From: Buxus sempervirens
Taxonomy: Eukaryota > Streptophyta > Magnoliopsida > Buxales > Buxaceae
Length of the DNA stretch: 64,000 bases
Assembly (NCBI GenBank): GCA_947561395.2
Contig: OX387191.1
Location: forward strand, 34,427,439 to 34,491,438
Direction of reading: 5' to 3'
Of this stretch, positions 303 to 62,184 are shown in pieces. The notes below the pieces were generated by a model. That model had not been told where the DNA came from, did no database searches, and saw only the letters and a list, made by a program, of their open reading frames with translations. The stretch's first letter is position 1; each line of letters begins with the position of its first letter. The position numbers and the translations under genes are program-made.

Positions 303-444
303 GTATCCGGTATATCAGGCCGGATACACAAGGCACTTAAGGTATCCGGTATATAATATCGGATACACTAAGCACTGCCTGTATCCGGTATTGATCACCG
401 GATACGAAGAGGACCACTTGTATCCGGCCTCAGTTGCCGGATAC
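303..444. repeat. Palindrome cluster, CCGG dialect (4 units)
   Basis: Four 25-bp inverted repeats of the form GTATCCGGY-N7-RCCGGATAC are spaced 13-20 bp apart. All four keep CCG-N11-CGG. The arms are conserved while the seven central bases vary. Confidence 0.9.
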
Positions 445-534
445 AGGTAAAAATTCATTTTCTTCAATTTTTGTGCTAGCTTTCAAGGAGATAATGATTT
501 TTTATGATTGTTTGTGCAATTTGGGGTGTCTACA

Positions 535-2102
535 CCTAGCGCCAACCTTCCTAACTCAGCGCATACCCCAATTTTTGATAAACAGTGCGACTTTTTATAG
601 ATTTGATCATAGTTCCAGTTTTAGCTTCTAAAATATGTTGGAATGAGTTGATTAAAGTTGGCTTAGCACTCCAGAACAAATTTTGGTGAATTAAATTAGG
701 GTGCATTGGAAGAATAAATCAGAATGGGGATATTCTTTGGAGTTAATAGTAGTAAAGGAAATTTTATTCTTTGGGGATTGTCAGTAGTGAACTCTCAAAC
801 TGTTTCTTCTTCTATTGTCAAACAACTGACTACTTGTTAAGATTTGATGAGTATCGGATTCTGATTTTTGTAAACAACTGGTTATCAAACTTAGATTAAG
901 GAAGTGCGATAATTAAAATTAGTGAATGTAAGTTGAAAATTTCTGAAATGTGGAATTGTCCATTTGGAGCAGATTTATCATGTGCTAGCTTATGGTATTA
1001 CTACATCTGTTTTATTCAAAGGTTATTCAGAACTGATGAGATGGTCATTTGGAAGCTATGAAATTGTTTTATCCTCGCAATTGAATTACTGAATTTACAT
1101 TATGATCGGAAATATATTTGATTTTGTTTCTCCGGGTGTTTATTGGTTGTCGTATGGATTAACATATAAGTGTTTCACTTAATGAGCAAATTGCTGCAAA
1201 TTTTATTGTTGGATGGTTTTTAGTGATTATTTGGAACTGAATTTGGTATTAATAAATTATAGATGATTTTGTTTTCATTGAGCATGACTTTAAGCTGAAC
1301 GAGTAAATAATTTGATAAGTTTGACAAAGTAATAAGGGCGAGACTTAGTGTGAATCCATAGTCTAGTTGTAAGTGAACTTTGTACTTTTTGTTTGGATTA
1401 AGTCTAGGGTTCCTTAGTGCATTTCCTCCATGATGGAGAGGCCTTTCATGAGGGAAGTGCTGCAGCAACTCCCTTTCCACCATAAGGGTGAAGTCACACG
1501 AGTATTTCCGCCATGATGGCGAAGAATTGGATTCCTTGAGCTGTTGCAGTATTTTAATTGGATTGTTTGGAACACTAGTGCTTAGCCACACAAAATAGAC
1601 AAACTTCACGAGTCCCAATATATATAAAGTTTTCCGAATCTGAATGACGATGTTTTCCGAGATTAGATGGATTAACCGAGGTTAACCGTATACTTTACCG
1701 TTTATAACCTATGCATGTTTTGGAACTGTTATAACTGTGTTTTGTGCATGCATTGCTACTTGCTGAGATAGTCGTATCTCACTGCTTTTTTTTTGTTTTC
1801 AGATCTCGGCGAGGACGATATCATGGGGTGGATATTTTGGCAGACTATCTGGAGTATCGTGAGGAGGACTATTTTATTGAGTAGATTATAGTAGTTGGTT
1901 TTTCTTGTTATAGTGAGTTTTATTATGAACCTTGTATTACTTTTGGATGGTGATTGGGAAACTAGTGAACCTTGATATTATGTAATTGAATCTTTATGTC
2001 TTTTATTTCAGGTGTTCCCCTACTCTGTTGATCCTGTGAAATTTTAGTTAACCTTCGGGTACGAGTTATGGTTATTTTACGTAACCCGGATTTGGGGCGG
2101 TA
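535..2102. mobile_element. Chromovirus-like LTR fragment (tentative)
   Basis: This 1.6-kb non-coding stretch ends with a string resembling plant Ty3/gypsy LTR termini (GGATTTGGGGCGGTACA, ending at 2102). It joins LTR-A at 534 and the start of antisense gene 2 at 2103. A T-rich stretch followed by TTTTCAGATCTCGGCGAG at 1783-1813 also resembles Tekay/Del-type LTRs. I could not fix its left end or find a target-site duplication, so family and orientation are uncertain. Confidence 0.4.
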
Positions 2103-2146
2103 CAAGGGATTTCATCAACAGGGGATGACGGTGCAAGAGATGCCAT
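2103..2146 (-). pseudogene. Antisense gene 2 of element 1, 5' coding remnant
   Basis: Only the first 44 coding bases survive, from an ATG at 2146 read on the minus strand to the LTR junction at 2103. The translation begins MASLAPSS and matches the region around MASPAPFSS near the N-terminus of the complete copy at 61231-61968. The rest of the gene and the pol region of element 1 are missing from the window, replaced by the LTR fragments to the left. The non-coding sequence upstream (2147-2240) also aligns with the leader of the complete copy, including a CACAATGACGTTCC block. Confidence 0.6.
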
Positions 2147-2294
2147 GGAATCACCAAAGGAGGCACTAGAAGCAAGGGACGGAGCGCCTAGGGTGTTTTG
2201 GAGCTAAGAAAAACGTCACAATGACGTTCCTCGGGGTTTTAAATAAAAAATTCGAAAAGGAATCAAAAACCGAATTTGATATACAGACAAGCAA

Positions 2295-2402
2295 TGTCCG
2301 TAGAGTAAATGCGGACACGCTGTGTCCACAGATCAAATGTGAACAAAGCATGACCGCATAGTAAATGCGGTCACACCTTGTCCGCATATGAAATGCGGTT
2401 TC
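2295..2402. repeat. Palindrome cluster, CCGCA dialect (4 units), upstream of antisense gene 2
   Basis: Four 23-bp units have 8-bp arms and a 7-bp spacer, for example TGACCGCA-N7-TGCGGTCA at 2350-2372. Three of four keep CCG-N11-CGG. The cluster lies 150-260 bp upstream of the antisense gene 2 start codon, with an A/T-rich TATA-like stretch at 2237-2248 between them. Confidence 0.9.
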
Positions 2403-2487: not shown

Positions 2488-3592
2488 CAATAATTGAGAT
2501 GCTGTTTTGAGCTTCACTTGTCCCTGTTTAAACAAGAATCATTCAATGAAGTGCAGAATTTAAATAAAGAAGAGGATAAATGAATGAAATTTCTGTTTTC
2601 ATATATGAATGAGAGTATACATCAATTTGTCAAAATACAAATATACATATGATGTCCTAATCTACTGTTCCTTTGCAGGTCCACCTCCACGGCCTCTGCC
2701 TCGAGATCGACGGTGCCCAAAGACAAGCGACACTATGCGGTAAGCAGTACTACGCTCCATCCTGCCCAAAACAAACTGAACGTCATACATGATGCTCAGA
2801 GGCACAAGGGAAGAGGTCGGGGACTCAGGAGTAACATACCTCAAATCATCTGAAGCAACAGGGGCAGACTTTGGGACATCCATATCTCCGGCAGGCTCAG
2901 AGGCAGAATCAGCAGGAACAGACTTAGCAGCAGGCTCAGCACTCCCACTGGCAGCAGGCTCGGCCGCAGGATTAGACACATTAGGAACATCAACAGCAGG
3001 TATCGGGTCTACCACAGGCTCGACAGTAGCAGGTGTAAGCACCTCATTTTTGCGCTCCCGAAAGAGCCGGAAATGCAAACCCTAAATAGAAAGTCAAACC
3101 ATAAGGGATAAAAATTTGACCTTTTGATCAAGTGGTGATTGGCCACCCTGCTTTATCCCATTGGATAGAGCATCCCGACACGAGTCCAACGCAACTAAGT
3201 TCGCTGGAATCGGAGTCCGGATGAAGGTTCTGTGGGCCAGTCAAACTTGAGGGGGAGCTGAAAGTTGACTTTTCCTCGAAACCCGTGCCAAGTGTTTAGC
3301 TCTATGTCATTGAATAGAGGGCTCCGATACGAGTCTAACGCAATTGAATTTGCTCAAATCAGAGTTCGGGTGAAGGAGATGAGCTGTCGAAGTTTCCGCG
3401 CAGCAAAACCGGAAACTGCACACGTGGCGCAGCAACTGCCCACGTGGCAGCCAACGCAGCAAAATATCTCAGGGACTAAATCTTAAATATCAAAAATTCG
3501 TACGGGGCGATCCGTAGATATCCAAAAGTGTCAAATCGGTCAAATCGGTCGAATCGGTCAAGTCGAAGGGCAAATCCGTAATTTTTTGATTT

Positions 3593-3827
3593 GTATCCGG
3601 TCAAATATACCGGATACACGTACCCTTGTGTATATCCGGATTTGAAGGCCGGATACGGAGATTTTCTCGCGCAAGATCGCCCGACAGATTCGCGACGGCA
3701 TTAAATTTTGAAATGATTATGTTTGTATTCGGCATTAAGTGCCGGATATAAAGAAATCTCTGTGTATCCGGTCATGAAGACCGGATATGAATAAGCCTCA
3801 GTGTATCCGGCCTGAGTTGCCGGATAC
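3593..3827. repeat. Palindrome cluster, CCGG dialect (5 units), LTR-B1 promoter
   Basis: Five units of GTATCCGGY-N7-RCCGGATAY end 12 bp before the TATA box at 3839. Four keep CCG-N11-CGG exactly; the fifth has a single change to TCG. Confidence 0.9.
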
Positions 3828-3838
3828 ATTAATGTGTC

Positions 3839-3846: not shown

Positions 3847-4873
3847 GCAAACCAGCAGCTCATATCCGGGGTTGGCTTCTTTTTGGCTGTTCTCCCCTTT
3901 CTTCCCCCACTGTGTCAGCTCCGAAAACTCCTCCTTCCTACCCCCCTTTGGTCCTATAACCCCCCAAGCATCATCTTAACGCTCCCCCTTCCTCCTTTTC
4001 TTCTCCTTCTCCATCTTCATCCCACCAAGAAGGAGAGTACCTGTTGTTGGTGTGTAAAGGGAGGGCTCCAGCACCTGTTCTTGCTCCAAGGAGAAGGCTA
4101 CACACTTCAAAGGGGTTTCAAACCCCAAGGTATTGTTCCTTGACATGATTTATTCAACATATATTAAAATGAGCATCTCTTGAGCATGATATAATTTTTG
4201 TTGTCTAAGCATGTCTCACCTGGCTGATCTTGGTTATCTTGTTTGCATGGGGGAGCATGTTCCCCCATTTTGGTCATCCATCTAATGTACCCCATATTTA
4301 AACCCCCCTTCTCATCCTTTCTTTGCTGTTTTGTGTTGGTTATTAGCAATCTTGTTTACAGCCATGATGCATGCTTAGGTAACATGATAGATTTTCGGTA
4401 TGTCACTGCCATATAACCTCGTCCCCCACTTTAGTTTGCTGTTTTGGTGCGTTTACCATAATTCCCAAGCCCACTTTAGGTAGCAATGGTAGGTGCACTC
4501 TCACACACACTTTGATAGGTAGTTTGTGCTGTAAATTCCATAATGAGTCCAATTTATGTGGGTGTTTGGGTCATTGGCTCTCGTGGTATGGAAGGAACCA
4601 GAGCAAGGGCTCTATTTGGTCCTTGTTCTGCCATTGAGTTGAGCCATTAGCGGTCCCTGTTAACCCCCTGTGGTAGCTTGCTGTCTAGCTAGCTCATTTG
4701 CTATCCCAGCCCCATCTTTTCCCTTTGGTCCTCACAACCCTTTGAGAGAGCCAAGTGGCTCTCACCTGAACTAATGTGGGCTCACACAGGAGCCCACGCA
4801 ATCATTAGAACATCCCAAGAAGCATAAAAAACCCAACCCCACTGCCAAAAATCCGAAAACAGGCTTCTGTGCA

Positions 4874-5016
4874 TTGATCCGGCAACTCAGGCCGGATCAA
4901 CATAAGCCTGTGTGTAGCCGGCAATAGATGCCGGATACACAGAGACCAGTGTATAGCCGGCAACAGATGCCGGATACACAGTGACTTGTGTGTAACCGGC
5001 ATCTCAGGCCGGCTAC
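4874..5016. repeat. Second palindrome cluster in LTR-B1, CCGG dialect (4 units)
   Basis: Four units about 1 kb downstream of the TATA box, for example GATCCGGC-N7-GCCGGATC and GTAACCGGC-N7-GCCGGCTAC. All keep CCG-N11-CGG and the same dialect as the promoter cluster of this LTR. Confidence 0.88.
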
Positions 5017-8000
5017 ACTGCCAGACTTCATTTTGAGCCATTTTTCTGATCTTACGTGATTTCTTGGTTTGTTTGATCAAATCCGAATGAACCAGAAGGG
5101 TTTCCGGGTCACCCAGAAACCCAAAATGGGCCATGGACCGACCCGGTCCAAATTGATTTCCGGTGGGCCTTCCAACGGGGCCCACCAAGCCCGACCAACC
5201 CACTTGTGCCTAAATAAGATAAACAAGAGATTTGAGTGGGCCAGACCAATTGAGGCCCACCCAAGCCCTAATTGGGCCATGCATGATTAAAGTAGGATGT
5301 GGTTTGGCCGAGACCACGGGTAGGGCCTATCGGGCCCACTAAGCCCATGAACCCAACCAACTTAGGGTTTCAAAACCCTAACTTAGGAAGTCTTGGGCTT
5401 TCAAACCCAAGCCCAGGTAAAAGGCCCCAAGCCCAACACTTGGCCATTTTGGCACAGATAAGCAAGATAATCAAAACCCCTTGGCAACCAACTGCGGGGC
5501 CCACCCAAGGGCCCGCAAGGCAATCCCGGCCCACTTTTGACATGAAATCCACTTAACTAATCCAACCGGAACTTCAAAATAAAATCAATTCAAAATTGAA
5601 CCAAAGTCCAAAGGGCCACACTTGGCCCACCAAGGGACATGTGGGCTCAACCAAGCCCACCAAGGAATCCGCGGGCCTTCCAACGAGGCCCGCCCAATCA
5701 GACTCACACCACTTTAAGCTAAGAAAGATAAAACCAAGTAAAGGGACCCATACCACTTTGGCGGTACCGCCAGACTTAATCAAATCACATGCTGGAATAG
5801 GAATCGGGTGAGTGAGAGACCAGATTTGACTCAAACCAGGGAAACCTATGGGACCCGTCACTTGACGGGGTGGACTGGGGTGTCTACGGACTTCCCCAGA
5901 CCGCAACCGAGAACCTACTTAGAATCTCAAGCCGTAGACCAAGCCTTAATAGAAAAACTTAGGCACCCAGGTGTCTGCCTGCACCCCATCAGGCAGTGGC
6001 GACTCCAAACAAATCCCGAGCCACGCATCGTTTTGCGTGCGCCTCGTCGTGCGACCGAAATCGGGTGTGCACAGTAGGATCTGCCTCAGGCACCTCCTCT
6101 GTTACATTGGCCTCCTCGCCAGGCTCCATCTCAACATCTACCTCAACAGTCATATCTGGAGCGGTCCCTGGTGCTGGGGCAAACTCTGGAACGTCCATTG
6201 CAGCGTGAGCAGCAGCAGATGTGGTATCAACCTCTATCTCCGGCAGTACTGCGAGCACCTCTACCGACCGAGAAGGAGTCACGAACTCCACTCGTGCCAC
6301 TGAAAATACCTCACCACTGAAGCACGTGGGACGAGGTGGAGTATGTGAACTGGAAAAGGGTTGGCTGTGTCATCCTGAAAATAAGAAAAGAATTCTAATC
6401 AAAACAGAATGAACAGATATAAGAAGCAAAAATTGAAAGAGGTGAATAATCTACCTGTGTGTGAGATGGACCCACCTGGTCCTGAGCATGAGACGGACCT
6501 GCCTGGTCCTGTGCCATAGCTAACTGTGCCCTGAGATCTGCAATAAGAACTCCCGCTTTGCCAACTAACGCTCTAAATCAGCATAATGAGCCCGAATCTC
6601 CGCTAACTGAGCGTCATCAAATAAAAGAGAAGATGTCAGAAATTCCTAGTCAAATTGAAGATAGGAAATGAAGTCAAAAGAGGGAAAGGCATACCGTGGT
6701 GTTGTAGGCTCGGACCATCACCCCTCCTATCTCTGTAACTCCGCCTCGGACAAGCATGGGTGGCATGAGGCACCCAATCGAGGCCTGCCTAAACTAGGCA
6801 TCATAGTCACCCTCTATTATCAGAGTCTCTGCCTTCGTCCAATCTAGGAACTGAGCAGGCTCGACAGGCCTGGGAGGAAAGGAAGAAGTAGTATCGAGAG
6901 GGATAACAAGAATCCGAGGCTCTCCGGTGTGCTGATAGAAGAAACGGTCGCCAAAATACCAAATGCTACCCATCTAACCAATGAAGAACTGGTATCGCTG
7001 ATGCCTCTGGTCAGGGGCAAATGCATCATCAACAATAGCCTGCAGAGCGATCGCCTCCGGAATGTCCTCGAACCGGGGAACAAACAACTGAGAAGCAAAA
7101 AAGGGATGTTAGGCATGTGATTCAAGGAAGAAAAAAACTACTCACATCCGTCCTACAAAGCCGGTCCAGATGAGCCTGAGCATACCTAAGTCGACTCTTC
7201 TCAGAGTCGTGCTCTACGTAGCTCCATTTACGAGCCATCGGGAACATGCCCTCTGGCATTGTAGAGGTCGAGCGGAAGTAGCGAATATACACCCTGGCAA
7301 AGAACTGCAGAAAAAGAAAAGAAGGTCAGAAGAATAAAAAGGAGAAAAAGAAAAAGAAAAAAAGAAATGTGTATTTCACCTGCAAGAAGGACCAGAAAAA
7401 TCTGCACCCAACTTCGGCACCTCGGGAGGTGGAAAGACCGCTAACGGCTCGGCGCAGGCCAGCCAAAATAGTGCCGAAGATGAGCAGGCCCCATGCGTAC
7501 CTCCTTGCCCACGGCAGGTCCCTCAACAAGCTCAAAAAAGGAGGACTGACGAAAGTCGTATCCTTCGGGCAAAAGCAAGAGCCCATCATATGAAAGAAGA
7601 TGAAGTGAAAGGCGAAGGGAAAATCCGCATGGTTGACAGCAATCTGACTGAATCCTCTCTCTCGGAAGGCCTCTCTCAACCAAGTCAAGGATAACTTAGG
7701 CCTCCCTCCATCCCAAGCCTCTGGGGGCATCGCACCATATCCAAGAAGGGCAGCAATCTCAAGATCATCCGGCCTCACCAGCTCTGGGATGATATCTCCA
7801 GACATCCTAATCCCGGTGATGAGCGTGAAGTCGGACGGCCGAATCCCAATCTCTATGTCTGGAAAGTAAAAGCTCAGGGTCTCTGGGAAAAATCTCTCGA
7901 GCATCGCTGTAATAAGAGCCTGATCCAAACGTACGCCAGGGTTGGTGATGAAATGTCCAAATCCAAACAAGCCTAGCTCCTGACAAAATGCTGAACCACA

Positions 8001-8542
8001 ACCCCCGAGGAATCTGGTGAAGCTGGCCCAACTCCCTCGATAGTGGGATAGAGGATACTCCAAAGGGATATCTACCCTAATACAAGATAAGGGATGAGTC
8101 CTCAAGCCATGTAGAAGGTCTATATCCCTAATCTACGTTGCAATCGCCTTAGGGATATCAACTCGAGTCTGAGACTCCTCCCCACCTCGGCCTCTGCCAC
8201 GGCCCCTGCCTAGGCCTCCGCCACGGCCTCCATCATGGCCCATACCTTGGTGCCCGCCAAGGCCCCTGCCTCGGCCAGGAGCCTCAGCAACTGGCTAAGG
8301 AAAAAAATTGAAAGTAGAAATGATCAGGGTGAAGGATTTTGAGAAAGAAGCTGAATTTCAAAAGGGTTAGGGTATACCTCTGGGGTCGCCTCATGCGAAC
8401 CCTCAGAAGGAAGATCGGGGACATCCGAGTCAGAGTCTCTCCCCGCTCTCAAAGATGAGGCCACATCAGCATGATCCCTCCGAACCCTAGAAGAAGAGGG
8501 CTCATCTTCAGGATCTCTAGGAGCTGAACGGATACGGGCCAT

Positions 8543-10035: not shown

Positions 10036-10051
10036 ATAAAAGGGCCCTAGA

Positions 10052-10158
10052 AAACCGCAGAAGAAACACGGACAGTTCAAGACCGCAAAGATAATGCGGT
10101 CATGGCGTTTCCACATTCAAAATGCGGACGAAGCCAAACCACATTATAAATGTGGGCA
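10052..10158. repeat. Palindrome cluster, CCGCA dialect (4 units), upstream of antisense gene 1
   Basis: Four 7-bp-spacer units include AAACCGCA-N7-CACGGACA and GACCGCA-N7-TGCGGTC. Two keep CCG-N11-CGG; the other two differ by CCG-to-CCA changes. The dialect matches the other two clusters of element 1 (2295-2402 and 10598-10704). Confidence 0.85.
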
Positions 10159-10597: not shown

Positions 10598-10704
10598 TGC
10601 CCACATTTGGTATGCGGATGTACCTTGACCGCATTTGATCTGCAGTCATTACGTGACCGCATTGAAGATTCGGTCAAGGCATGACCGCAATCAATATGCG
10701 GTCA
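10598..10704. repeat. Palindrome cluster, CCGCA dialect (4 units), LTR of element 1
   Basis: Four units of the type TGACCGCA-N7-TGCGGTCA (best copy 10682-10704). Two keep CCG-N11-CGG; the others carry single C-to-T or G-to-A type changes. Confidence 0.88.
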
Positions 10705-10776
10705 CGGATAGTTTTGTGCATTTTCTCAATTGTTAGATTTCTGAGCCTTATTTACACTCCTACCTCTCTCTAGGAG

Positions 10777-12994: not shown

Positions 12995-13360
12995 ACTGTT
13001 AGAACCTCATTTTTGCACCCCTCTAAAAAGCCCAAAGGCAAAACCCTAGAAGACAGGTCAAAACCCTAAGGAGCAAAAGGTGACTTTCCCCCTGAGCCCA
13101 AATTCATTGCTATACCCTATCCCAATGGGTAGAGCATCTTGACATGGTTCCAACGCAATTAAGTTTGCAGGAATCAGAGCCCGGATGGAGAAGATATGAG
13201 CAAAACAATCCCAGGGGCAAATCCGTCAAAGTTAAAATATCTTAATTAAACTAATTAAGACAAATGGGAAATAATAAAAATTGGGGAAGTCTAATTTGTC
13301 CAAGTAAGCGGCTGAGTTACCTCAGCCATCAACTCAACCAAAAAAGGGGGAGAAAAAGCG

Positions 13361-13612
13361 CGACCGCATATGAAGTGCGGTCGATTTTTCGGCCACCGCT
13401 CGCGCGAGCCAATCAGCGCAAGCGGCGCGCGAAAAATAACCGCACTAACAGTGCAGTTGCATGGCGCGCCAGACTGCGCTGACCAATTTGTTCCCCTATT
13501 AAATGCTGAAAAGACAAGGCCAAAACCGCACATACCCTGCGGTTTTGACCAAACCGCACGGTATGTGCGGTTACTGTTCATTTTCGGCAAAACCGCACCG
13601 AGTATGCGGTTT
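13361..13612. repeat. Palindrome cluster, CCGCA dialect (5 units), LTR-B2 promoter
   Basis: Units such as CGACCGCA-N7-TGCGGTCG and AAACCGCA-N7-TGCGGTTT end 13 bp before the TATA box. Four of five keep CCG-N11-CGG. Confidence 0.9.
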
Positions 13613-13625
13613 TGTCCAAGTGTTC

Positions 13626-48113: not shown

Positions 48114-48341
48114 CCATTAGATCATAAATCATTTACGGTCACTAAAGACTCGTGCGAGTTTTATTCTTCTTTCGATTTCCGAGCTTTATCTTTAGTCCAA
48201 TATCCCTTTAAAGGAGCGAATTATGTCTTTTATTCGCTGAAGCCATCTTGGTTGGCTATGGATGGGCATTATCTCCGTTTTTCACTCTATCCTGAGGATC
48301 AGGATATATCCTTCTGGACCAGCCTAGCCCCTGTGCTTGCC

Positions 48342-50943: not shown

Positions 50944-51077
50944 AACCGTATTTGATACACGGGTTAGGCTCATCCGTATTAGTTATACGGGCGGGGTTCG
51001 CCCGTGGATTTCATACGGTCGTGGCTCGCTCGTAATTTGAATACGGGCAGGGCTGGACCGTACTGTGTATACGGGTT
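50944..51077. repeat. Palindrome cluster, CCGTA dialect (5 units), leader of element 3
   Basis: Units such as CATCCGTA-N7-TACGGGCG and GGACCGTA-N7-TACGGGTT. Four of five keep CCG-N11-CGG. Confidence 0.9.
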
Positions 51078-51226
51078 TCGCGGAAAATTCAATTTTAATC
51101 AATTTTTCCCACTAAATCTTATTCCTTTAACCTTTAAATAATGATAGGGGGAAATGAGTTTAAATAAAATGTTTTAAAAAAAATAATAAATAAATGAATA
51201 AAAACAAATGTGGGAGAAAATCCTTT

Positions 51227-51840
51227 GGGCCTCTGAAAGCCTTTGAACTTCAGACTTTTTCTCAAAAACTCCTTGGGCCTCTGAAAGCCTTTGAATTTCA
51301 GACTTTTTCTCAAAAAACCCCGGGCCTCTGAAAGCCTTTGAATTTCAGACCTTTTCTCAAAATATCCTTGGGCCTCTGAAAGCCTTTGAATTTCAGACCT
51401 TTTCTCAAAATATCCTTGGGCCTCTGAAAGCCTTTGAATTTCAGATCTTTTGGGCCTCTGAAAGCCTTTGAATTTCAGACCTTTTTCTTTTGGGCCTCTG
51501 AAAGCCTTTGAATTTCAGACCTTTTTCTTTTGGGCCTCTGAAAGCCTTTGAATTTCAGATCTTTGGGCCTCTGAAAGCCTTTGAATTTCAGACTTTTTCT
51601 CAAAAACTCCTTGGGCCTCTGAAAGCCTTTGAATTTCAGACTTTTTCTCAAAAAATCCTCGGGCCTCTGCAAGCCTTTGAATTTCAGACCTTTTCCAAAA
51701 AATATCCCTGGGCCTCTGAAAGCCTTTGAATTTCAGACCTTTTCCAAAAATATCCTTGGGCCTCTGAAAGCCTTTGAATTTCAGACCTTTTTCAAAACCC
51801 CCCCGGGCCTCTGAAAGCCTTTGAATTTCAAATCATTTTC
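51227..51840 (+). repeat. Tandem repeat in the leader of element 3, 34-49 bp x 14
   Basis: Fourteen copies share GGGCCTCTGAAAGCCTTTGA; unit length varies because the tail after TTTCAGA differs (short CTTTT or longer TCTCAAAATATCC). Each unit contains TCTGAAA and TTTCAGA as 7-bp inverted arms around nine bases, so the transcript could form a row of small hairpins. Confidence 0.95.
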
Positions 51841-52071
51841 TCTTTATTGCTGGACCTGTTGGAAGCCGTAGAATATTCCAACAATTCTAAAAATAAAAAA
51901 AAGAAGCAAATAAAGAAAAAATCCAAACTCGTGTTCACCCAGCTTGCACATAGGCATTCCTAGGCATGTGAATGAGATTAATTGGGCACTGATATTTTTT
52001 CCTTTATTTTGTTATCAGGTACTAATATACTTGCAATCATAGCTCCTGTAACCAAATCAAGAGCTCGCGCC

Positions 52072-54441
52072 ATGAATCCCATTGAGGTTGAAACTGATGC
52101 TCCTCACCCAGATATTCTCTTGCTTCAAGAGCAAGTGGCAGGACTAGCCCGTATGCTAGAAAACATCCTGTCAGTGCAGGCCCAACAAGTGCAAGCCCAG
52201 AACCAAGCATCCACTTCCAACCCAGCACCTCCACCACAAATCAACATTCCACCTCCGGTTCAACCTATTCCTAAACCCATCTATGAACCCACCCCTGAAC
52301 CTATACTAATCAGGGATGAGGCAGTGGAGTCGGACAAAGCTAAGGAAAAGGAAAGGATGAGGGAAGAAGTTGAGAGGAAGTTCATGCATAGACTGGAAAT
52401 GATCCAAGATGAACTGAGGGAGGTTAAAGGTGTGAACAACTTTAGGGGCACCAACTTTGAGGACATATGCCTGTACCCTAATGTTAACCTGCCGGTTAAG
52501 TTCAAGTGCCCAGACCTAGATAAATATGATGGCACTGGCTGCCCCATGAGCCATCTGAAGTTATACTGTGGTGCCTTATGCCAGTTCGGTCGAGATGAGG
52601 GTGTTCTGATCCAGCTCTTCCAAAGGAGCTTAACTGGAACCGCCTTGAGGTGGTTCGCTACTCTAGACCATGGAAAGATTAGAAGATGGAAGGACCTGGC
52701 AGATGCCTTCCTAGCTCAATACCGGTTCGATTCAGAGATCGTACCAGACAGATACGATGTAATGAGAATGAGCAAGGGAAGGGACGAATCTGTGAGACAG
52801 TATGCCAAGAGATGGAGGGAGACTGCCTCTCAGGTCAGACCACCTATGCTAGAACAGGAGATGATTTCCACCTTCATCAGCACATTGGGTCAACCATTCT
52901 ACAGCCACCTGGTGGGTCAGACCACCACTAATTTTGCTGCCTTAGTTCAAGTGGCTGACCGAATTGAGGACGGGATCAGGTTAGGAAAAATAATTGACCA
53001 CTCTGCTATGGTCAATCAGCAGGACCCTAATCTGAAGAAAGGAAGCGGGATTAAGAAGAATGGGAATAAGAAAGAAGGGGAGGTGAACATGATACAACCA
53101 CCATCTGGCCCTAACAAGCCCATACAAATCAACAGACCTGCTCATTTTCCTACTCCATCTCCATCTACCCAGGCCCCTATAAGGGTTAATGTTCCAGCAG
53201 CACCTTCAGACCAAAAAAGGGTTTTTACTAAGGAGGAAAAGGATGCCTATTTCGCAGCAAGGAGAAATAGGGTTTTCACTCCTATTCCAATGACTCCTTC
53301 TCAGTTGCTTCCCACTTTATTGCAAGCAGGGTATATCACTTTAAGAGAGCCCAATCCGAATGCATCCAAGGGGAGAAATTTTGACCCCTCCACCACTTGC
53401 GATTACCACGTGGGTGCACCTGGGCACCCTACTGACAAGTGCTGGCCTTTGAAACATGCCATTCAGGATTTACTGGACCAGAATACCCTGTCTTTCAATA
53501 CGGGAGCTCCCAATCCTCCCAGAGCTGACATTGGCCAAAACCCGTTGCTTCAGCATCATGGGGCAGGCCCCTCTAATGTCATAGGGGTAATTTCCTCTGA
53601 TAAAATAACCTTTGACCCATCCCAGTTAATTGCTCCAATAGGGACAACGGTCAAAGTGTATTTTGACAGAAGAAATAAGGACAAAGAAATAAATGTAATT
53701 TCAAAAGGGAATGATAGTACTGCAAAGAACATTAGCTCATCTCTGGACCGGGTCTCGTCCTTCATGGCCCAAATGAACATTGCAAAACCACCGTTGGTCA
53801 TCAATTGCAGCCCATCCACCCATTTTTCACCCATTCAGCCAAAACCACCATTGATCATAAATTGTGACCCTCTTAGTGCATCAGTCACTTCTGCAACCCC
53901 CCAACCAAAACAACTTCCACCATTGGTTATTAATATTCCCATTGCTCAAACTTCACCATCCAAGTCCAAACTTTCTCCCTTGGTGATAAATGTCCCCAAG
54001 CCTTCCTACTCTGAATCGGCTGTACCATGGAACTACAGTGAAGCTTTTACCACTACATGCCCTGCAGCTGAAAGCAAGGAAGAAGTGAACCTCATGATGA
54101 GGTCAGGAAAATGTGTAGCGGTGGAAGAAAAACAAAAGGAGAGAGAGAAGGAAAAGGAAGAAGAAAAAACTAAAGGAAAGACCAAGGTAGGGGAAGATGC
54201 CCCTCAGGTAACTAACAGTGAGGCTGCTGACCTCATGAAGATAATAAAAAAGAGTGAGTTCAATGTTGTCGAACAGTCGAACAAAGTCCCTGCCCAGATC
54301 TCAATACTGGGCCTATTGTTAAATTCTGAAAAACATAGGGACTCCTTGTTAAGGATACTCCAGGGGGCCCATGTGCCTAAAAACATTGAACCAGACCAAC
54401 TAGGCCGGATGGTTGGGCAAATTTATCCCACAATGTCATAA
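52072..54441 (+). CDS. gag: gag polyprotein of element 3
   Basis: An open frame of about 789 codons from the ATG at 52072. A possible splice acceptor, TTGTTATCAG, ends at about 52018, just upstream. Residues 10-45 form a Leu/Gln-rich helix, a Pro-rich linker follows, and residues about 140-285 form the retrotransposon gag domain (LKLYCGALCQFGRDEG, RWKDLADAFLAQYRF). A zinc-knuckle-like C-x2-H-x5-H-x4-C lies around CDYHVGAPGHPTDKC. The C-terminal part is Pro/Ser-rich and lysine/glutamate-rich. The frame ends with QIYPTMS and a stop; element 2 reads through here into protease, so a one-base deletion near 54425 has broken gag from pro. The protein would assemble virus-like particles and bind element RNA. 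Confidence 0.88.
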   Translation: MNPIEVETDAPHPDILLLQEQVAGLARMLENILSVQAQQVQAQNQASTSNPAPPPQINIPPPVQPIPKPIYEPTPEPILIRDEAVESDKAKEKERMREEVERKFMHRLEMIQDELREVKGVNNFRGTNFEDICLYPNVNLPVKFKCPDLDKYDGTGCPMSHLKLYCGALCQFGRDEGVLIQLFQRSLTGTALRWFATLDHGKIRRWKDLADAFLAQYRFDSEIVPDRYDVMRMSKGRDESVRQYAKRWRETASQVRPPMLEQEMISTFISTLGQPFYSHLVGQTTTNFAALVQVADRIEDGIRLGKIIDHSAMVNQQDPNLKKGSGIKKNGNKKEGEVNMIQPPSGPNKPIQINRPAHFPTPSPSTQAPIRVNVPAAPSDQKRVFTKEEKDAYFAARRNRVFTPIPMTPSQLLPTLLQAGYITLREPNPNASKGRNFDPSTTCDYHVGAPGHPTDKCWPLKHAIQDLLDQNTLSFNTGAPNPPRADIGQNPLLQHHGAGPSNVIGVISSDKITFDPSQLIAPIGTTVKVYFDRRNKDKEINVISKGNDSTAKNISSSLDRVSSFMAQMNIAKPPLVINCSPSTHFSPIQPKPPLIINCDPLSASVTSATPQPKQLPPLVINIPIAQTSPSKSKLSPLVINVPKPSYSESAVPWNYSEAFTTTCPAAESKEEVNLMMRSGKCVAVEEKQKEREKEKEEEKTKGKTKVGEDAPQVTNSEAADLMKIIKKSEFNVVEQSNKVPAQISILGLLLNSEKHRDSLLRILQGAHVPKNIEPDQLGRMVGQIYPTMS

Positions 54442-55688
54442 CTTTTTCAGAGACTGAGATCAGCCCAGCAGGGTACCATCATGTTGACCCATTGCACATA
54501 GCTGTACTCAGTAAGGGTTGCATGATAGCCCGGGTCTTAATTGATAATGGGTCGGCTCTCAATGTCTGCCCGTTAATAACCTTTGTTAAGCTCGGTCTGA
54601 AGCAAAACAAAATCAAATAGAATGGAAGAATCATAAGAGCATTTGACAGCTCTAAAACACACTCCCTAGGGGAGGTTGAACTGCCGGTCACAATTGGACC
54701 GTATATTTTCAACATCACATTTGAAGTGATGGATATACCTGCAGCCTTCAACCTACTCCTAGGAAGGCCGTGGATTCATACAGCTAGGGCTATACCATCT
54801 ACCCTCCACCAAAGAGTCAAATATATTAGAGGGCAAAAGGTGATTACTGTCCTAGCTGAAAATTTGGTTCCTCCCATGTGGTCCCCTAATGTACCCTACA
54901 TAAACATGGAAATGACTGCTGACAAGATGGCCTTTCACTCTTTCCAGTTTGAAACTGTTAATTTTATACCTGGGGGGTATCAGGAAAAAGAAGGAAAATT
55001 GACCTGTGCTGAGAAAATGGTCAAGAATGTGCTGGAAAAGTACAACTTTCACCCTGGAAAAGGTCTGGGGGTTAACCTGCAAGGAAGGATAGAACCGATA
55101 AAGGTTAAGAAGATGGTCCACAGAGCAGGATTCGGGTCCAAGCCAAGGAAGTGGAGAAGTCAGAAGGAAATGGAAGACATGAAATTCCCTCACATCAGGG
55201 AATCTTTTCCTAAGCTTTCTCACATGATTCAGCTGTCTCCTCCTGAGGATCAGTCCAAACCCCCATACTATAACATCAATCCATTCCAAAAACCCAAATC
55301 CTCAACCGTGCAACCATATGTTCCACCTCCACCCCCACAAGCATTGAGTGGGCCTAGGCCACAGGCAGAACAGGAGCGTGATGTCTCTGAGGACATTGGA
55401 GCATTTTTTGCCATGACAGAAGGCAACAAAGAAGAAAGAGCAGAGGAGCTGCCTTTTATTGATTGGGCTGCAGTAGAAGTTCCATCTGTAACTAGCCCTA
55501 CAGAAGAAGCAGGCGATGCAACTCACCCAATATTGGTGATTTCAGATGCAGACCCTGAGCTTGAGGAGCAGGCTTGTATCACTGCCCCAGATTCTTTTAT
55601 TTTGAACAATTGGGAGGAAACTCCCCTTACTTTTGAAGCCGCGTTTGTTTGGCAAACAGACATGGCTTCCAAAAAAAAACTCCATTAG
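54424..55688 (+). pseudogene. Protease region of element 3
   Basis: After the frame break the sequence encodes an aspartic protease core (VLIDNGSALNV near 54535-54567) and FEVMDIPAAFNLLLGRPW. A Q-to-stop TAG at 54617-54619 interrupts the domain. The frame stays open from there to 55688, with a G-patch-like GKGLGVNLQGRIEP and an acidic stretch. It ends out of frame with RT at a run of nine A (55671-55679). Confidence 0.8.
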
Positions 55689-57144
55689 TGGAATGCCCTT
55701 TCCCTGAAGGTTTTAATGAGCCTTAGTCTTCAGGGAAAGATTTTGTAGAAGGCTCTCGAAAAACACAAAAAGATTTTCCAATTTTTATAGAAAAGATAAA
55801 TTTTTCAAAAGGGTCCAAACCGCTTATGAACCATATAAGCAAACGGAATTAGATCAGGATGAGTATGACTTCGACCTCGAGCTCGACTTTGACCTAATGG
55901 GGGTTGAAGAAGAGACCGAGGACGAAGAAGACGACCCTCCAAAAGAAATCACATATCAATTGGAGCGTCATGAAAAGGGGGTCCAACCCAATATTGAAGA
56001 GACCATATCAATAAACCTAGGGACCGAAGATGACCCAAAAATAGTAAAGATTGGGATATGCCTATCTGAGGTACAGCGAGATGAAATGATACGGTTCTTA
56101 GCCGACTATGAAGATGTATTTGCATGGTCGTATCAGGATATGCCAGGGTTAGACACGGACATGATTGTGCACAGGCTACCCATTCTACCAGATGCTAAGC
56201 CAGTTAAACAGAAACTGAGAAGGTTGAAACCTGAATGGACATTGAAGGTTAAAGATGAAGTGGTTAAGCAATTCCAAGCTGTATTCTTGGCGGTCTCCAC
56301 GTACCCTGAATGGCTTGCAAATATAGTGCCAGTACCAAAGAAGGATGGAAAGGTCCGAATGTGTGTAAACTACAGAGACTTGATTAAGGCAAGCCCAAAG
56401 GACGATTTTCCACTTCCACACATCGACATATTGGTGGACAACACTGCTGTACATAGCCTGTTCTCATTCATGGACGGGTTTTCTGGGTACAATCAAATTA
56501 AGATGGCTAAAGAGGATCAAGAAAAAACAGCCTTCATTACACCTTGGGGTACCTTCCACTACACTGTCATGCCATTTGGGCTTAAAAATGTCGGGGCAAC
56601 CTACCAATGGGCCATGACAGCCTTATTCCATGATATGATCCATAAGGAGATGGAGGTTTATGTGGATGATGTGATAGCCAAATCATGTGAAGAAGAAGAC
56701 CACTTGATCAACTTGAAGAAGGTGTTTGACCAGCCCAGGAAATATAGTCTAAGGCTTAACCCTGCAAAATGTGTCTTTAGGGCTACATCAGGAAAATTAT
56801 TGGGCTTTATAGTAAGCAGGAAGGGAATTGAGATTGACCCAGCTAAAGCTAAAGCAATCATTGAAATGCCATCACCTAGAACGGAGAAGGAAGTTCATGG
56901 TTTTCTTGGGAGGATTCAGTACATAAGCCGGTTCATAGCACAGCTCACCGCTATTTGTGAACCAATTTTCAAGCTTCTAAGAAAGAATAACCCGACAGTC
57001 TGGAATGACGATTGCCAAAAAGCCTTTGACACAATAAAGGAATATTTGTTGAACCCACCTGTGCTAGTACCACCAACTCCAGGGAGACCATTGATTTTAT
57101 ACTTGTCAGTTTTGGAGACGTCAATGGGGTGTGTCTTGGGATAG
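55689..57144 (+). pseudogene. Reverse transcriptase region of element 3
   Basis: The first part (to about 55890) holds a stop in the linker and a frame change. From 55897 a 415-codon open frame covers the RT domain with VPVPKKDGKVRMC, FMDGFSGYNQIKM, FGLKNVGATYQ and catalytic YVDDV (56659-56673). The conserved VDYRDLNKA motif reads VNYRDLIKA, so even the open part may be impaired. A Q-to-stop TAG at 57142-57144 ends it just before RNase H. Confidence 0.88.
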
Positions 57145-58941
57145 CATGACGATACAGGCAGAAAGGAAAGGGTGATTTACTACCTAAGCAAGAAATTTAC
57201 AGAATATGAAGCAAAGTATTCCCCTTTGGAAAAGACTTGTTGTGCCTTAGTGTGGGCAACTCAGAGACTGAGGCATTATTTCCTTAGTCATTCCACCTTA
57301 TTGATATCCCGAATGGATCCTTTGAAGTATTTATTTGAGAAACCAGCTTTAACTGGAAGAACAACAAAGTGGCAGTTATTACTCTCTGAATTTGACCTCA
57401 CCTATATCACACAGAAAGCCATTAAAGGTCAAGCCATAGCTGATCACTTAGCTGTACACCCTTTACCAGAATACCAACCTTTGAAGACTAACTTCCCGGA
57501 TGAGGCAATCCTATTTACTGAAGAAGAAGAAGGTGAAAGCTCTTGGCAAATGTTTTTTGATGGGGCCGCCAATATGAATGGAAATGGAATAGGGGCAGTT
57601 TTGATCAAGCCAGATGGGGCACACATCCCAATTGCAGTGAAGTTAAGGTTCCAATGCACAAACAATATTGCAGAGTATGAAGCATGCATAATTGGGTTGC
57701 AAGCTGCCTTAGACCATGAAGTAGAGGAACTTGACGTATATGGGGATTCGAGTTTTATCATCTTCCAAACAACTGGTGAATGGAAAACCAAGGATCACAA
57801 ACTGATCCCCTATCACCAGTATTTGGAAGAAATAAGCACCAAATTCACTCGAATTTCCTTCAATTATATGCCGAGGGCCAAAAATCAGTTTGCAGATGCT
57901 CTAGCAACATTGGCTTCAATGGTCAGTATGCCAGAAGGTGTTGATATTAGGCCGCTGGAAATTGAAGTCAGAGGTGAACCAGCTTATTGCCTTGTTCTAG
58001 AAGAAACCCCAGAAGAAGAAGTACCGTGGTTTCAAGATATTAAGAACTTCCTAAATGATCGAAGTTTGCCAGAAAATGTCACCTCTACAGAGAAAAGAAC
58101 AATACAGAGGTTGGCAGGACAGTTCTTACTAAGTGGTGGTCAGTTGTACAAAAGATCACACAATGATATACTACTTAGATGTGTTGCAAAGACCGAGTCA
58201 GAAAGGTTAGTTGAAACGATACATGGAGGAGTGTGTGGACCCCATATGAACGGGCATATGCTTGCCAAGAAGATTCTGCGATTGGGATATTACTGGTCAA
58301 CAATGGAGCACGATTGCTATATACATGTCAAAAGGTGTCATTTATGCCAAGTGTACGCGGATAACAAGAATGCACCCCCAAGTGAATTACACAACATGAC
58401 ATCCCCGTGGCCCTTCTCCATGTGGGGTATAGACGTCATTGGGATGATCTCTCCAAAGGCATCAAATGGGCACAGGTTTATACTTGTAGCAATTGATTAC
58501 TTCACCAAGTGGGTAGAGGCAGCTTCATATGCAAACATTACAAGTAACCACGTTTTGAAATTCTTGAAGCATAATATCATTTGTCGCTACGGTCTGCCAA
58601 GTGCCATAGTATCAGACAATGCTTCAAACCTAAAGAACAAGGACATGAGAAAGATGTGTGAACAATTTCACATCACCCACCACAAGTCAGCTCCGTATAG
58701 ACCAAAGATGAATGGGGCAGTAGAAGCAGCAAATAAGAATATAAAGAAGATCATTCAGAAGATGGTAGTGAGTTTCAAAGATTGGCATGAAATGCTGCCA
58801 CTTGCTCTACATGCTTACAGAACCTCGATTCGAACTTCTACAGGGGCAACCCCGTATTCCTTAGTATATGGAATGGAAGCAGTTTTACCAGTGGAAGTGG
58901 AAATACCTTCACTAAGAGTGCTGATGGAAGCTGAACTATAA
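57145..58941 (+). CDS. RNase H, archaeal-type RNase H and integrase of element 3
   Basis: An open frame of nearly 600 codons carries three domains. The gypsy RNase H comes first (IYYLSKKFTEYEAKYSPLEK). A second RNase H follows, with WQMFFDGAANMNG, NIAEYEACIIGL and FADALATLASM, the hallmark of the Tat/Ogre lineage. Integrase is last, with the zinc region HGGVCGPHMNGH and CHLCQ, and catalytic blocks around WGIDVIG, VSDNASN and GAVEAAN. It ends at TAA 58939-58941 after the catalytic core; the GPY-type C-terminus lies beyond this stop. The upstream stop separates it from RT, so it could only be made as part of a polyprotein if that stop were suppressed. Confidence 0.88.
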   Translation, partial: HDDTGRKERVIYYLSKKFTEYEAKYSPLEKTCCALVWATQRLRHYFLSHSTLLISRMDPLKYLFEKPALTGRTTKWQLLLSEFDLTYITQKAIKGQAIADHLAVHPLPEYQPLKTNFPDEAILFTEEEEGESSWQMFFDGAANMNGNGIGAVLIKPDGAHIPIAVKLRFQCTNNIAEYEACIIGLQAALDHEVEELDVYGDSSFIIFQTTGEWKTKDHKLIPYHQYLEEISTKFTRISFNYMPRAKNQFADALATLASMVSMPEGVDIRPLEIEVRGEPAYCLVLEETPEEEVPWFQDIKNFLNDRSLPENVTSTEKRTIQRLAGQFLLSGGQLYKRSHNDILLRCVAKTESERLVETIHGGVCGPHMNGHMLAKKILRLGYYWSTMEHDCYIHVKRCHLCQVYADNKNAPPSELHNMTSPWPFSMWGIDVIGMISPKASNGHRFILVAIDYFTKWVEAASYANITSNHVLKFLKHNIICRYGLPSAIVSDNASNLKNKDMRKMCEQFHITHHKSAPYRPKMNGAVEAANKNIKKIIQKMVVSFKDWHEMLPLALHAYRTSIRTSTGATPYSLVYGMEAVLPVEVEIPSLRVLMEAEL

Positions 58942-60168: not shown

Positions 60169-61968
60169 CTAAGCCCTACTTCCTAACTGCTCCTTAAGCT
60201 CCCTAATCCTAGCTGCTTGAGTTGAAATGATTACAGAAGCGCCCTCTGCATCAAGATCACTCAAAAAGGAGATGATCTCATCTGAAAGAGAATGCTTGAT
60301 CTTCAACGCCCTAAGGTCGGCCAAGGAATCCTGATATTTCTTCTGCATCACTCGGACTTCAAAGCGACGAGCTTGCCTTTGTTCTTCAAGTTTCTTCTCC
60401 ATGGCAATGTGGCCAGACTTCTGCTCTTCAAGTTTCCTCTCTAGATCAATGACTTTTATCCTAAGCTCTTGTGCTTCTCGTACCCATATTTGTTGAAGCC
60501 GCTTATGGGTTGCCCTTTCAGACTCCAGAATGTCCTCATAGGTAGGAGGAAGAACTGCAGGAGGATCCTCTGGTACTGGGACATGACTCTGCACCTGCTC
60601 TTTGATGGAGAAGTGATAGTCCTTCACATGGGACTCAGAAAAGATTGGACCCCGCAGAAAGCGAACATAGGACCACTCATTCATTAATTGAGCATTTAGC
60701 CCCATGTTGGCTGATGTAAGTGGCCCTACAAGGCTCTCATAGCCAGTTGGGATCATGATTCCCTGGGTCGCTCCAAACTGCCGAAGAACCCTCAAAGGAA
60801 GATAGAGAACAGCAGATTTCAAGCCTGCCAGGACCAGAAAGTTCCTATCTTTGAAGCTGATCACTGTCTCGGGATTGGGCTGATAAGTGCCAGGCCATCT
60901 CACTTGATCGTCCTGGAGAGTACCCAAGAAAGTGAACCATCCCTGCTTGCCGCCTTGGATATTAGGACAACCCCTGTGGCTCATCAGAACAGGAACTTTC
61001 AACTTTGGAAAGAAGCGGCGAGTTATCTCTTCAACTTGGCTCAGGTGGTCAAGCAACCAAAGCTGCAAAAAAGGGGAGAATTTCAATTTATTTCAAAAAG
61101 AAAAAAAAGAGAGAAAAAAAAGAAAGAAAAAAGAAAGAAAAAAAAGAGAAAAAAAAAGAAGAAAAGAAGAAAGAAAAAAAAAGAAGAAAGAAAAAAAGAA
61201 GAAAAAAAAATATAATATTTATTTTCTTACCTGTAGGATAGGGGCGCAGGCAAGGAAGCGTTTCTTCTTTCTGAAATAGCAGTCAGTAAGGGCCTGGTAT
61301 ATCTCCGCTAAGATCATAGGGGCCAACCTCTCACATTCCCTAACTTGGCAGATGACTGAGATGAGAGCCAAGTCAACCTGGTCATCACACCGTGGAAATA
61401 ATAACTGGTTGACCACTACCAAAGTCAAAGCATTAAACCTGGCATCCTTGTCCCCACTCCTTAGAAGTTTTTCAGTCAAAAAGGTCTTGGACAAGGTCAA
61501 TAGGGTATCAGAATTCCCTAAGTCTTTCTTCCCTGTACCCAAGAATGTAGAGGCCTCCTTTTTGTAACTAGGCTTTAGGGGCGGGTTCACAACTTTTTCA
61601 GAAAATTTTAAGCCAAGGATGGTCTCAATTTCTTCTATGGTAGGAGTCATCTCTTTGTCATCAAAACGGAAGAGATTCAGTTCAGGAACCCAATGTCCAA
61701 TCAAAGCTTCAATGATTTCCCACTTAAAGGGAATTTTAGGGATGTGTAGGATATGCCCTAGGTGGATGGAATCCCAACGAATCTCCTCATCAAGGGTCAT
61801 GGAGTTAACCCATCTGTCATAGAAAGAGTCCACAATGTTATACCTGGTGAGATTAGGAGGTTTTGATCTAACAGGTTGTCTTGCAGGAGGAGATTCAACG
61901 GCAGAAGAGAACGGTGCAGGGGAAGCCATGGAAGGGCCAAAGAAGCCAAGGAAAGCGAGAAAAGACAT
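60169..61968 (-). CDS. Antisense gene 2 of element 3: PMD/DUF7745-like protein, two exons
   Basis: Read on the minus strand: exon 1 61968-61231 (246 codons from ATG), an intron of 168 bp with donor CTACAG/GTAAGA and acceptor TTTTTGCAG/CTTTGG, and exon 2 61062-60169 (298 codons with stop). Both exons are in phase 0, giving about 543 residues. Residues around 80-115 (EALIGHWVPELNLFRF, EMTPTIEEIETILGL) resemble the helix-rich start of plant PMD/DUF7745 proteins. The C-terminal 150 residues are coiled-coil-like (LQQIWVREAQEL, AMEKKLEEQRQARRF). No nonsense codon or frameshift is visible, unlike the gag-pol of the same element. A TATA box at 62021 and a CCGTA cluster lie just upstream. The family name is by motif impression; function is unknown. 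Confidence 0.78.
61063..61230 (-). other. Intron of antisense gene 2, polypyrimidine-rich
   Basis: The coding strand is almost wholly C/T with long T runs between a consensus donor and acceptor. The equivalent intron end in element 2 (22966-23161) is likewise an expanded polypyrimidine run. Confidence 0.75.
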
Positions 61969-62020
61969 GCTCAGGGAGTTTTCAAACTATTAAAAGTGTC
62001 ACAATGACGTTCCCCATGAG

Positions 62021-62028
62021 TTTATATA
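62021..62028 (-). promoter_or_regulatory. TATA box of antisense gene 2
   Basis: The minus strand reads CTATATAAAC, 53 bp upstream of the ATG at 61968 and 23 bp downstream of the palindrome cluster, as in the LTR-B promoters. Confidence 0.65.
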
Positions 62029-62050
62029 GAAAAAATCGTTAAGGAAGTAA

Positions 62051-62184
62051 AATCCGTAATTATAATACAGGCATAGCGCACCCGTATAAAGAATACGGAC
62101 ACACTTGACTGTGGAAAATTCACGGGCAGAGTGTGCCCGTATTAATATTACGGGCATGGCGTGCTTGTAGTCTAAGTACGGTTC
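62051..62184. repeat. Palindrome cluster, CCGTA dialect (5 units), antisense gene 2 promoter
   Basis: The best unit is TGCCCGTA-N7-TACGGGCA (62134-62156), with CACCCGTA-N7-TACGGACA at 62079-62101. Two of five keep CCG-N11-CGG; the others keep the 8-7-8 layout with single changes. Confidence 0.88.

Follow-up and report, generated by a model that had tools for sequence, protein, structure and literature searches.

Palindromic repeats have been described in the long terminal repeats (LTRs) of Sireviruses, which are Ty1/copia elements, under the name of repeated motif (RM) boxes (Bousios et al. 2010, PMC2829016). In the portion of that paper available to us, 12 of the 13 listed motifs carry a CGG-CCG signature and the boxes form CpG islands. 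Motif arrays associated with an element's own protein are known from the Arabidopsis VANDAL DNA transposons and their VANC anti-silencing proteins (Hosaka et al. 2017, PMC5735166, available in part). Among Ogre elements, 57% contain a plant mobile domain (PMD; Neumann et al. 2019, PMC6317226), and the part of that account available to us does not mention palindrome arrays. In Retand, antisense TRP28 genes suggested to bind DNA and regulate lie between pol and the 3' LTR, and about half of the elements have tandem arrays (PMC11963269, partial text). Here, we analyzed a window of 64,000 nucleotides (64 kb) of Buxus sempervirens (contig OX387191.1, positions 34,427,439 to 34,491,438 of the forward strand), in which short palindromes of the form CCG-N11-CGG recur in arrays across several retroelements.

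The RM boxes are the nearest cis-element precedent for these arrays, and the VANC/VANDAL arrays are the nearest system. As in the available account of Sireviruses, repeated CGG-CCG palindromes are located in the LTR upstream of the promoter or TATA box, their sequence differs between elements, and further copies lie upstream of an additional gene (the envelope gene in Sirevirus, antisense genes here). In contrast to Sireviruses, the elements described here have Ty3/gypsy gene order, and the Sirevirus triplets stand closer together, as in CCGGACTGTCCGG, without a constant N11; the antisense genes, the TATA distance, and the same-arm pattern described below also have no counterpart in that part of the account. 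With VANDAL, the arrays share the density of short motifs in non-coding transposon DNA and their divergence between families along with the element's own protein. As far as that paper is available, however, its motifs have one orientation and their binding was shown by chromatin immunoprecipitation (ChIP) and electrophoretic mobility shift assay (EMSA), whereas here the half-sites are inverted and binding is a conjecture. With the Ogre lineage (PMC6317226, in part), the elements share an additional RNase H located between RNase H and integrase, as well as the plant mobile domain, and antisense genes between pol and the 3' LTR are shared with Retand, in whose partly available description the antisense domain is TRP28 rather than DUF7745/PMD. 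The present arrays differ from these known kinds in superfamily, constant N11, antisense genes, and TATA distance. Literature titles and abstract openings gave no account of a CCG-N11-CGG array system in these elements and, likewise at that level, nothing useful on a link to LOB-domain proteins.

We consider it probable, at roughly 0.6, that the palindromes serve, in their arrays, as operators for a dimeric protein that binds DNA sequence-specifically and co-evolves with an Ogre-type element, with the antisense gene product as the leading candidate. If true, a major class of plant retrotransposons would possess its own cis-trans regulatory system that can be read from sequence, the arm class would indicate the factor to which a given element responds, the antisense PMD/DUF7745 genes would acquire a function, and the system would be a retrotransposon counterpart of VANC.

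Geometry and abundance of the palindromes

CCG-N11-CGG occurs at 61 sites in the window, and every other gap from 0 to 20 occurs 1-11 times. Inside 17 defined arrays lie 54 of the 61 sites, leaving 7 outside, so that the fixed geometry proposed in a first-pass annotation of this DNA was borne out and its hand count of about 54 exact units was matched. Gaps of 24, 37, and 39 are also raised (16, 28, and 23 CCG/CGG pairs, respectively), as the array steps predict. Looser units, defined by at least 5 of 6 core bases and at least 6 of 8 arm pairs, number 58, compared with a mean of 2.35 and a maximum of 6 in 20 first-order Markov shuffles. When 8-bp arms of any sequence were allowed, a spacer of 7 was the most frequent (29 vs 0.7 in shuffles); spacers of 9, 11, and 5 were raised as well (20, 18, and 13), because the same palindromes are expected again when the arm window slides in or out. 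The half-site centres are 14 bp apart, or about 1.3 turns, and not one helical turn as first supposed.

The genome search covered 676.5 Mb, with reversed patterns as controls. TATCCG-N11-CGGATA was found 41,458 times vs 23 for its control, which sets the scale of a single arm class in this one genome, and N11 accounts for 41,458 of the 43,324 TATCCG/CGGATA pairs at gaps 0-30 (95.7%); the genome-wide comparison of spacer lengths that the first-pass annotation had proposed thus finds N11 to be near-exclusive for the TATCCG class. CCCGTA arms gave 12,806 matches (control 1,703), with the CCCGTA-N7-TACGGG geometry in 49 of 50 distinct places among the matches listed. GACCGC arms form a weak class (1,204 vs 775), with GACCGC-N9-GCGGTC in 37 of 50 places among the matches listed, and the bare CCG-N11-CGG pattern was enriched only 1.3-fold (163,369 vs 126,325). 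ACCGAA arms (L038 260-377; L numbers denote stretches outside the window) were considered as a further genome-wide N11 class and found no support, few of the listed places having N11 and most being other repeats. Among 13 grid stretches of 10 kb, seven have at least 3 units (8, 5, 4, 4, 5, 3, and 9 in L009, L010, L011, L012, L015, L020, and L021, respectively), one has 1, and five have none; L001-L003 and L005-L008, which are overlapping or single, were excluded from most unit counts.

Units follow each other at steps of 28 or 39 bp. Among 90 listed TATCCG positions (C1:1388984 and minus-strand repeat rows excluded), the 57 spacings below 200 bp comprise 45 at 39, 2 at 38, 9 at 77-78, and 1 at 103 bp. 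A 28-bp array presents a half-site every 14 bp in alternating orientation; in a 39-bp array, half-site distances alternate between 14 and 25 bp (14 plus about one turn). Such regular steps are what passive tandem duplication of an accidental ancestral palindrome would leave. However, heptamer spacers drift while arms stay, 50 of those in the 54 array units of the window being distinct: across the 34 units of the TATCCG class, right-arm offsets 6-11 reach a pairwise identity of 0.88-1.0, compared with 0.32-0.69 at offsets 4-5 and 0.24-0.53 in the heptamer, the right arm alone being a fair measure because these units had been selected for a left arm with ATCCG. Arrays in separate flanks of an element also have the same arms, and several LTRs keep a near-constant distance to the TATA box, all of which makes passive duplication very improbable. 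The first-pass preference for selection on two half-sites over plain duplication accordingly gains support from the near-exclusive spacer of the TATCCG class, the varied heptamers, and the several complementary arm pairs.

Elements and positions of the arrays

The array carriers are Ty3/gypsy elements of Ogre type. The protein segment encoded by window 57145-58938 matches RT_RNaseH at 3-83, RVT_3 at 138-256, and rve at 423-520, and the plant mobile domain families PF10536 and PF24924 were found in antisense open reading frames (ORFs). In the available part of PMC6317226, Ogre and Retand both have RNase H followed by a second RNase H and then integrase; this order, along with the plant mobile domain, fits the Ogre lineage. 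The arrays sit in the LTR U3 and in the leader or distal LTR, and two antisense genes (one DUF7745/PMD, the other PMD) have an array upstream; the code is therefore not confined to LTRs as had been claimed. The arrays and LTRs of the window, with the sense genes of the element on its right side (the + element), are as follows.

301-445 (-): U3 array of an LTR-D-type LTR, 4 exact TATCCGG units at 39-bp steps; TATA box about 180 bp downstream on -
2265-2400 (-): GACCGCA/GTCCGCA array upstream of the start of the left element's antisense DUF7745-type gene; by eye, the last centre (degenerate) is about 33 bp from TATTTAAAA
3034-6057 (+): LTR-A copy nested in the left element's antisense PMD gene, end approximate
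3590-3830 (+): LTR-A array 1, TATCCGG; last centre 3815, TATAAATA at 3839 (24 bp)
4873-5018 (+): LTR-A array 2; the end of the LTR follows after about 1 kb
10045-10130 (-): GACCGCA array, presumed promoter of the left element's antisense PMD gene
10623-10707 (+): GACCGCA U3 array of an LTR-D-type LTR starting at about 10522, by eye
13360-13615 (+): array 1 of the LTR with its start at 12997, arms AACCGCA except for a GACCGCA unit at 13372; TATAAAAG at 13626, 25 bp from the last centre (13601)
15958-16014 (+): array 2 of the same LTR, AACCGCA arms
20066-22567 (-): 3' LTR of element 2, of LTR-D type, start by eye; its partner segment at 45896-47934 is 98% identical
22321-22466 (-): U3 array of element 2, mostly TATCCGAC arms
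26958-29367 (+): LTR-B solo LTR with target-site duplication (TSD) CACCC, nested in the LTR-A copy 23514-29455 (-)
27509-27730 (+): LTR-B array 1, CCCGTA class; last centre 27716, TATAAATA at 27741 (25 bp)
28535-28647 (+): LTR-B array 2, CCGTA arms
33262-37974 (-): LTR-A solo LTR, TSD GTCAT from sequence
34314-34381 (-): array 2 of this solo LTR
36997-37246 (-): array 1 of this solo LTR; last centre 37011, TATAAAAA at 36987 (24 bp)
43863-44008 (-): leader array of element 2, CCGA-type arms as in its 3' LTR
48033-48116 (+): CCCGTA-class U3 array of an LTR-D-type LTR (start about 47935), given to the + element by position and orientation
50940-51080 (+): leader array of the + element, CCGTA arms, 28-bp steps
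51982-58938 (+): gag, G-patch ORF, reverse transcriptase, RNase H, second RNase H (RVT_3), and integrase of the + element, as separate ORF pieces in that order
62050-62160 (-): CCCGTA array of the antisense DUF7745 promoter; TATATAAA at 62028, 34 bp from the last (degenerate) centre 62062

Other repeats accompany these elements. Near the array-2 position of an LTR-A copy, a GAGCTC array (24773-24948; arms approximately GTGGGCGC and GCGCACCC) has a 7-bp centre without the CCG core. Tandem repeats of about 48 bp (GGGCCTCTGAAAGCCTTTGAATTTCAGA...) occupy 51217-51842 in the leader of the + element, and repeats of 147-148 bp are found near LTR-A copy starts at 26254-26904 and 37568-37864. LTR-D-type elements have seemingly inserted into each other near the U3 array or TATA box in two cases, both read by eye, at window 47934/47935 and at about 2230 in L022.

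Arms tend to be shared within an element

Within an element, the arrays read tend to share one arm class (four elements and six test elements), and classes differ between elements. The three arrays of the + element have CCGTA arms (CCCGTA class) and the three of the left element have CCGCA arms, arrays being assigned to both by position and orientation, with the 3' LTR of the + element beyond the window. In the two arrays of element 2, CCGA arms occur in 7 of 8 units. A fourth element, in L022/L023 (one region at C1 3.41-3.43 Mb, with a 3-kb gap unread between the two stretches), has five TATCCGG arrays, and the U3 arrays at its two ends are alike; a CCCGTA/GACCGTA array just outside it belongs to the LTR that hosts this nested element. 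As a prediction test, a stretch 3-6 kb away was fetched afterwards for 6 of the 14 DUF7745 promoter copies described below; given the CCCGTA promoter, CCGTA-type arms were found on the PMD-promoter and LTR sides in 6 of 6, and no TATCCG or CCGCA unit was listed on either side.

DUF7745 exon 2 is 87.5% and 78.4% identical between two TATCCG elements, and 79.0% and 68.5% identical to the CCCGTA element; the difference is smaller for integrase (91.4% vs 89.6%). On these sequence comparisons, the higher DUF7745 identity within the TATCCG class agrees with co-evolution, as seen in a handful of elements. Concerted change of arms over 5-20 kb points to a partner protein that co-evolves with them and would most simply be element-encoded.

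The factor could instead belong to a host family. As the main rival, a host transcription factor family reading CCG half-sites would bind the operators, whose flanks would have diversified to use other family members or to escape repression. The promoter-proximal position and the CCG core common to arm classes would suit such a factor, as would the edges of the arm classes, which are soft, one stretch being mixed. The Sirevirus CGG-CCG boxes, too, are likened to host regulatory sites, mainly stress-related, in the available part of PMC2829016. Concerted flank replacement in up to five arrays per element would, however, require many changes in parallel if the binder did not change along with the element. 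We also know of no plant factor with CCG-N11-CGG specificity, although no motif library was searched, which weighs against a host factor; overall, we regard this alternative as unlikely but serious.

Distance from arrays to TATA boxes

In four LTRs of the window (3034+, 12997+, 26958+, and 37974-), the last centre of array 1 lies 24 or 25 bp before the first T of the TATA box. In 217 kb with 208 units, there are 8 loci, including three in grid stretches, at which TATAWAW stands 24-26 bp from the centre of a palindrome, compared with about 1.7 expected by chance from the rate in the same data. TATAWAW counts exist at other distances as well, an AT microsatellite contributing many of them, and the units of one array are not independent of each other. 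Among the matches listed for CGGATA-N{0,30}-TATAAA, 100 places in the first 13 Mb of one contig showed a gap of 13 in 34 and of 12 in 20 (hand count), which puts the TATA box 24-25 bp from the would-be palindrome centre, CGGATA being taken alone and its membership in a palindrome assumed.

For the antisense DUF7745 promoters, 14 copies were fetched out of 149 listed. In all 14, TATATA is preceded by three or more CCGTA-type units that follow each other every 27-28 bp; the recognised centre closest to TATATA is 33-34 bp away in 12 copies, and in L025 and L036 a further-decayed unit occupies the 33-34 bp position by eye. The corresponding distance in L023 is 25 bp. Thus, with 24-25 bp in the LTRs and L023 and 33-34 bp in the DUF7745 promoters, the TATA distance is 24-25 bp or about one turn more.

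These distances would be left unexplained if the palindromes were sites recognised in integration or another DNA transaction and not in transcription. The two apparent insertions of LTR-D-type into LTR-D-type elements near a U3 array or TATA box (47934/47935; L022 about 2230) speak for such sites; they are, however, just two cases, and three other nested LTRs of the window lie in coding regions and one in an LTR. We give this explanation next to no weight.

DNA sites compared with RNA hairpins

With 8-9 bp stems and 7-nt loops, the palindromes could also form RNA hairpins in element transcripts for packaging, dimerisation, or small-RNA production. The arm and loop sizes suit hairpins, and transcription is expected to cover the leader and distal-LTR arrays. 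For Sirevirus palindromes, a connection with small RNAs has been described. In our data, arm positions occur as several complementary pairs (at offset 9, T-A 53, A-T 24, and C-G 15 in 114 units), the units having been chosen for pairing, which inflates the share of paired cells and not the variety of pairs. Sense-oriented mismatches in 98 units comprise G.U 22, A.C 35, and other 64, with no wobble preference; counts on unoriented units were dropped because strand reversal converts G.T to A.C. Since G.U pairs did not exceed A.C pairs in the oriented counts, hairpins were set aside as the main explanation. Several arrays also lie upstream of TATA boxes at a near-fixed distance, and the core bases hardly vary, a constancy that pairing by itself would not require. 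RNA hairpins are, therefore, improbable: the absence of a wobble preference together with the TATA distances favours double-stranded DNA sites, and on the same two grounds the dimeric DNA-binding protein of the first-pass annotation is the best explanation, the binder itself being putative.

Antisense genes

Two antisense genes lie between integrase and the 3' LTR of the + element:

60172-61986 (-): antisense DUF7745/PMD gene of two exons, with a GTAAG donor and a pyrimidine-rich intron
62397-64000 (-): tail of a second antisense gene of PMD type with a glycine-arginine-rich end, continuing past the window edge

The second gene was assigned by homology to the PMD gene region at 6076-8132, and its tail (62397-64000) had no Pfam match. 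The C-terminal half of the DUF7745/PMD product appears coiled-coil-like by eye. A GTAAG or GTAAA splice donor is found at the same place in three DUF7745 copies, and a pyrimidine-rich intron is present in two of these three and in element 2. This intron-like interruption in a retrotransposon gene, kept in both the window copy (60172-61986, -) and L023 (3129-4833), would be expected provided that the opposite strand forms the genomic RNA. A conserved GGAACGTCATTGTGAC-like block separates the DUF7745 start from its TATA box, at about 61990-62015 in the window copy and about 2210-2240 in the left element.

The ratio of nonsynonymous to synonymous substitution rates (dN/dS) for DUF7745 between the window and L023 is 0.07 (exon 1) and 0.12 (exon 2), that between the window and L012 is 0.16 and 0.18, and that between L023 and L012 is 0.07 for exon 1, all to be taken as rough because dS exceeds 1 (saturated) in most between-lineage pairs. 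Comparison of the window with 11 close copies gave 0.08-0.27 (for 3 of the 14 copies, no in-frame placement was possible), and RNase H-integrase gave 0.03. A genome search for a DUF7745 exon gave 5,907 candidates; of the 149 scored, which are the best-scoring and hence biased to young copies, all but 16 (hand count) are without a stop inside the match. On these sequence-based estimates, the antisense DUF7745 gene looks to be under purifying selection.

Proposed mechanism

From the observed geometry, abundance, positions, TATA distances, arm sharing in a limited sample, and purifying selection on the antisense gene, we infer protein binding, a dimer, the identity of the protein, and activation. 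A dimer would bind double-stranded DNA operators in short arrays at the LTR U3, the leader or distal LTR, and the antisense promoters. The CCG...CGG core at 14-bp centre spacing would be the common footprint, and the flanking arm bases would be the specificity code, changed jointly across an element's arrays. The antisense DUF7745/PMD coiled-coil protein would act as an LTR activator or anti-silencer and would regulate its own gene; it is the leading candidate because its own promoter has an array, the gene looks selected, and a coiled coil offers a dimer.

More tentatively, and with the odds against it, the arms may constitute a private code in which the spliced antisense DUF7745/PMD dimer reads its own operators, activates or de-silences its element, and regulates itself, in mutually blind co-evolving families whose gag-only relatives ride in trans. 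A candidate relative is L045 (G000:C1:7897300-7904300), the inner part of an element flanked by two clusters of CCCGTA arrays 9.9 kb apart; as judged by array position without alignment, the element is LTR-B-like. This element is apparently non-autonomous, and its gag-only interior fits a factor used in trans or a host factor.

Several observations weigh against operators read by a co-evolving antisense product, in addition to the rough dN/dS ratios, the pairing-based choice of units, and the possible host factor noted above. The 7 kb of L045 contain a gag match and no pol, DUF7745, or PMD match. DNA binding by DUF7745 is without structural support, because searches of solved structures with PMD and DUF7745 pieces found no relative, a protein-database search found no relative at threshold, and the AlphaFold model of exon 1 from the single sequence was uninformative (predicted local distance difference test score, pLDDT, 37.8). 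The LTR-D-type U3 arrays are about 170-240 bp upstream of a TATA box, the leader arrays and the second arrays of LTR-A and LTR-B have no TATA box close by in the element sense, and the whole CGGATA-N{0,30}-TATAAA pattern exceeds its reversed control only 1.6-fold (7,404 vs 4,674). In the six-copy prediction test, the LTR start motif was present in 5 of 6 and a single unit was found on one side in L042 and L043; because the copies are close relatives, the test amounts to one lineage seen six times. For L012, which has a GTCCGCA promoter array and was predicted to carry these arms in its 3' LTR as well, the L012/L038 stretches showed an LTR-A-like array and another array type, the expected LTR not being reached. 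Units at L009 2095-2151 combine a CCGCA left arm with a TACGGGC right arm, as if between classes, and CCGTA arrays mix GCCCGTA with GACCGTA.

A recurrent edge heptamer

The centres had also been described as free in sequence, which holds for most heptamers and fails for one edge unit of many arrays, where CTGAGTT is kept. With one mismatch allowed and loci below 2 kb excluded, CTGAGTT reads outward in the edge unit at 17 of 94 edges of 47 arrays and inward at 3 edges, and is present in 1 of 45 internal units. Such edge units, common to different arm classes, are found at 432, 3815, 4887, 22452, 34367, and 43994 in the window and in L011, L021, L022, L023, L038, L039, L043, and L044 outside it. 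By eye, and where orientation could be assigned, the CTGAGTT unit of promoter-proximal arrays points towards the TATA box, and that of leader, distal-LTR, and LTR-D-type U3 arrays points upstream. A site for a second protein and a mark of polarity are candidate roles.

A leucine-rich-repeat gene fragment of R13L1/DRL21 type lies among the retroelements at 19280-19888.

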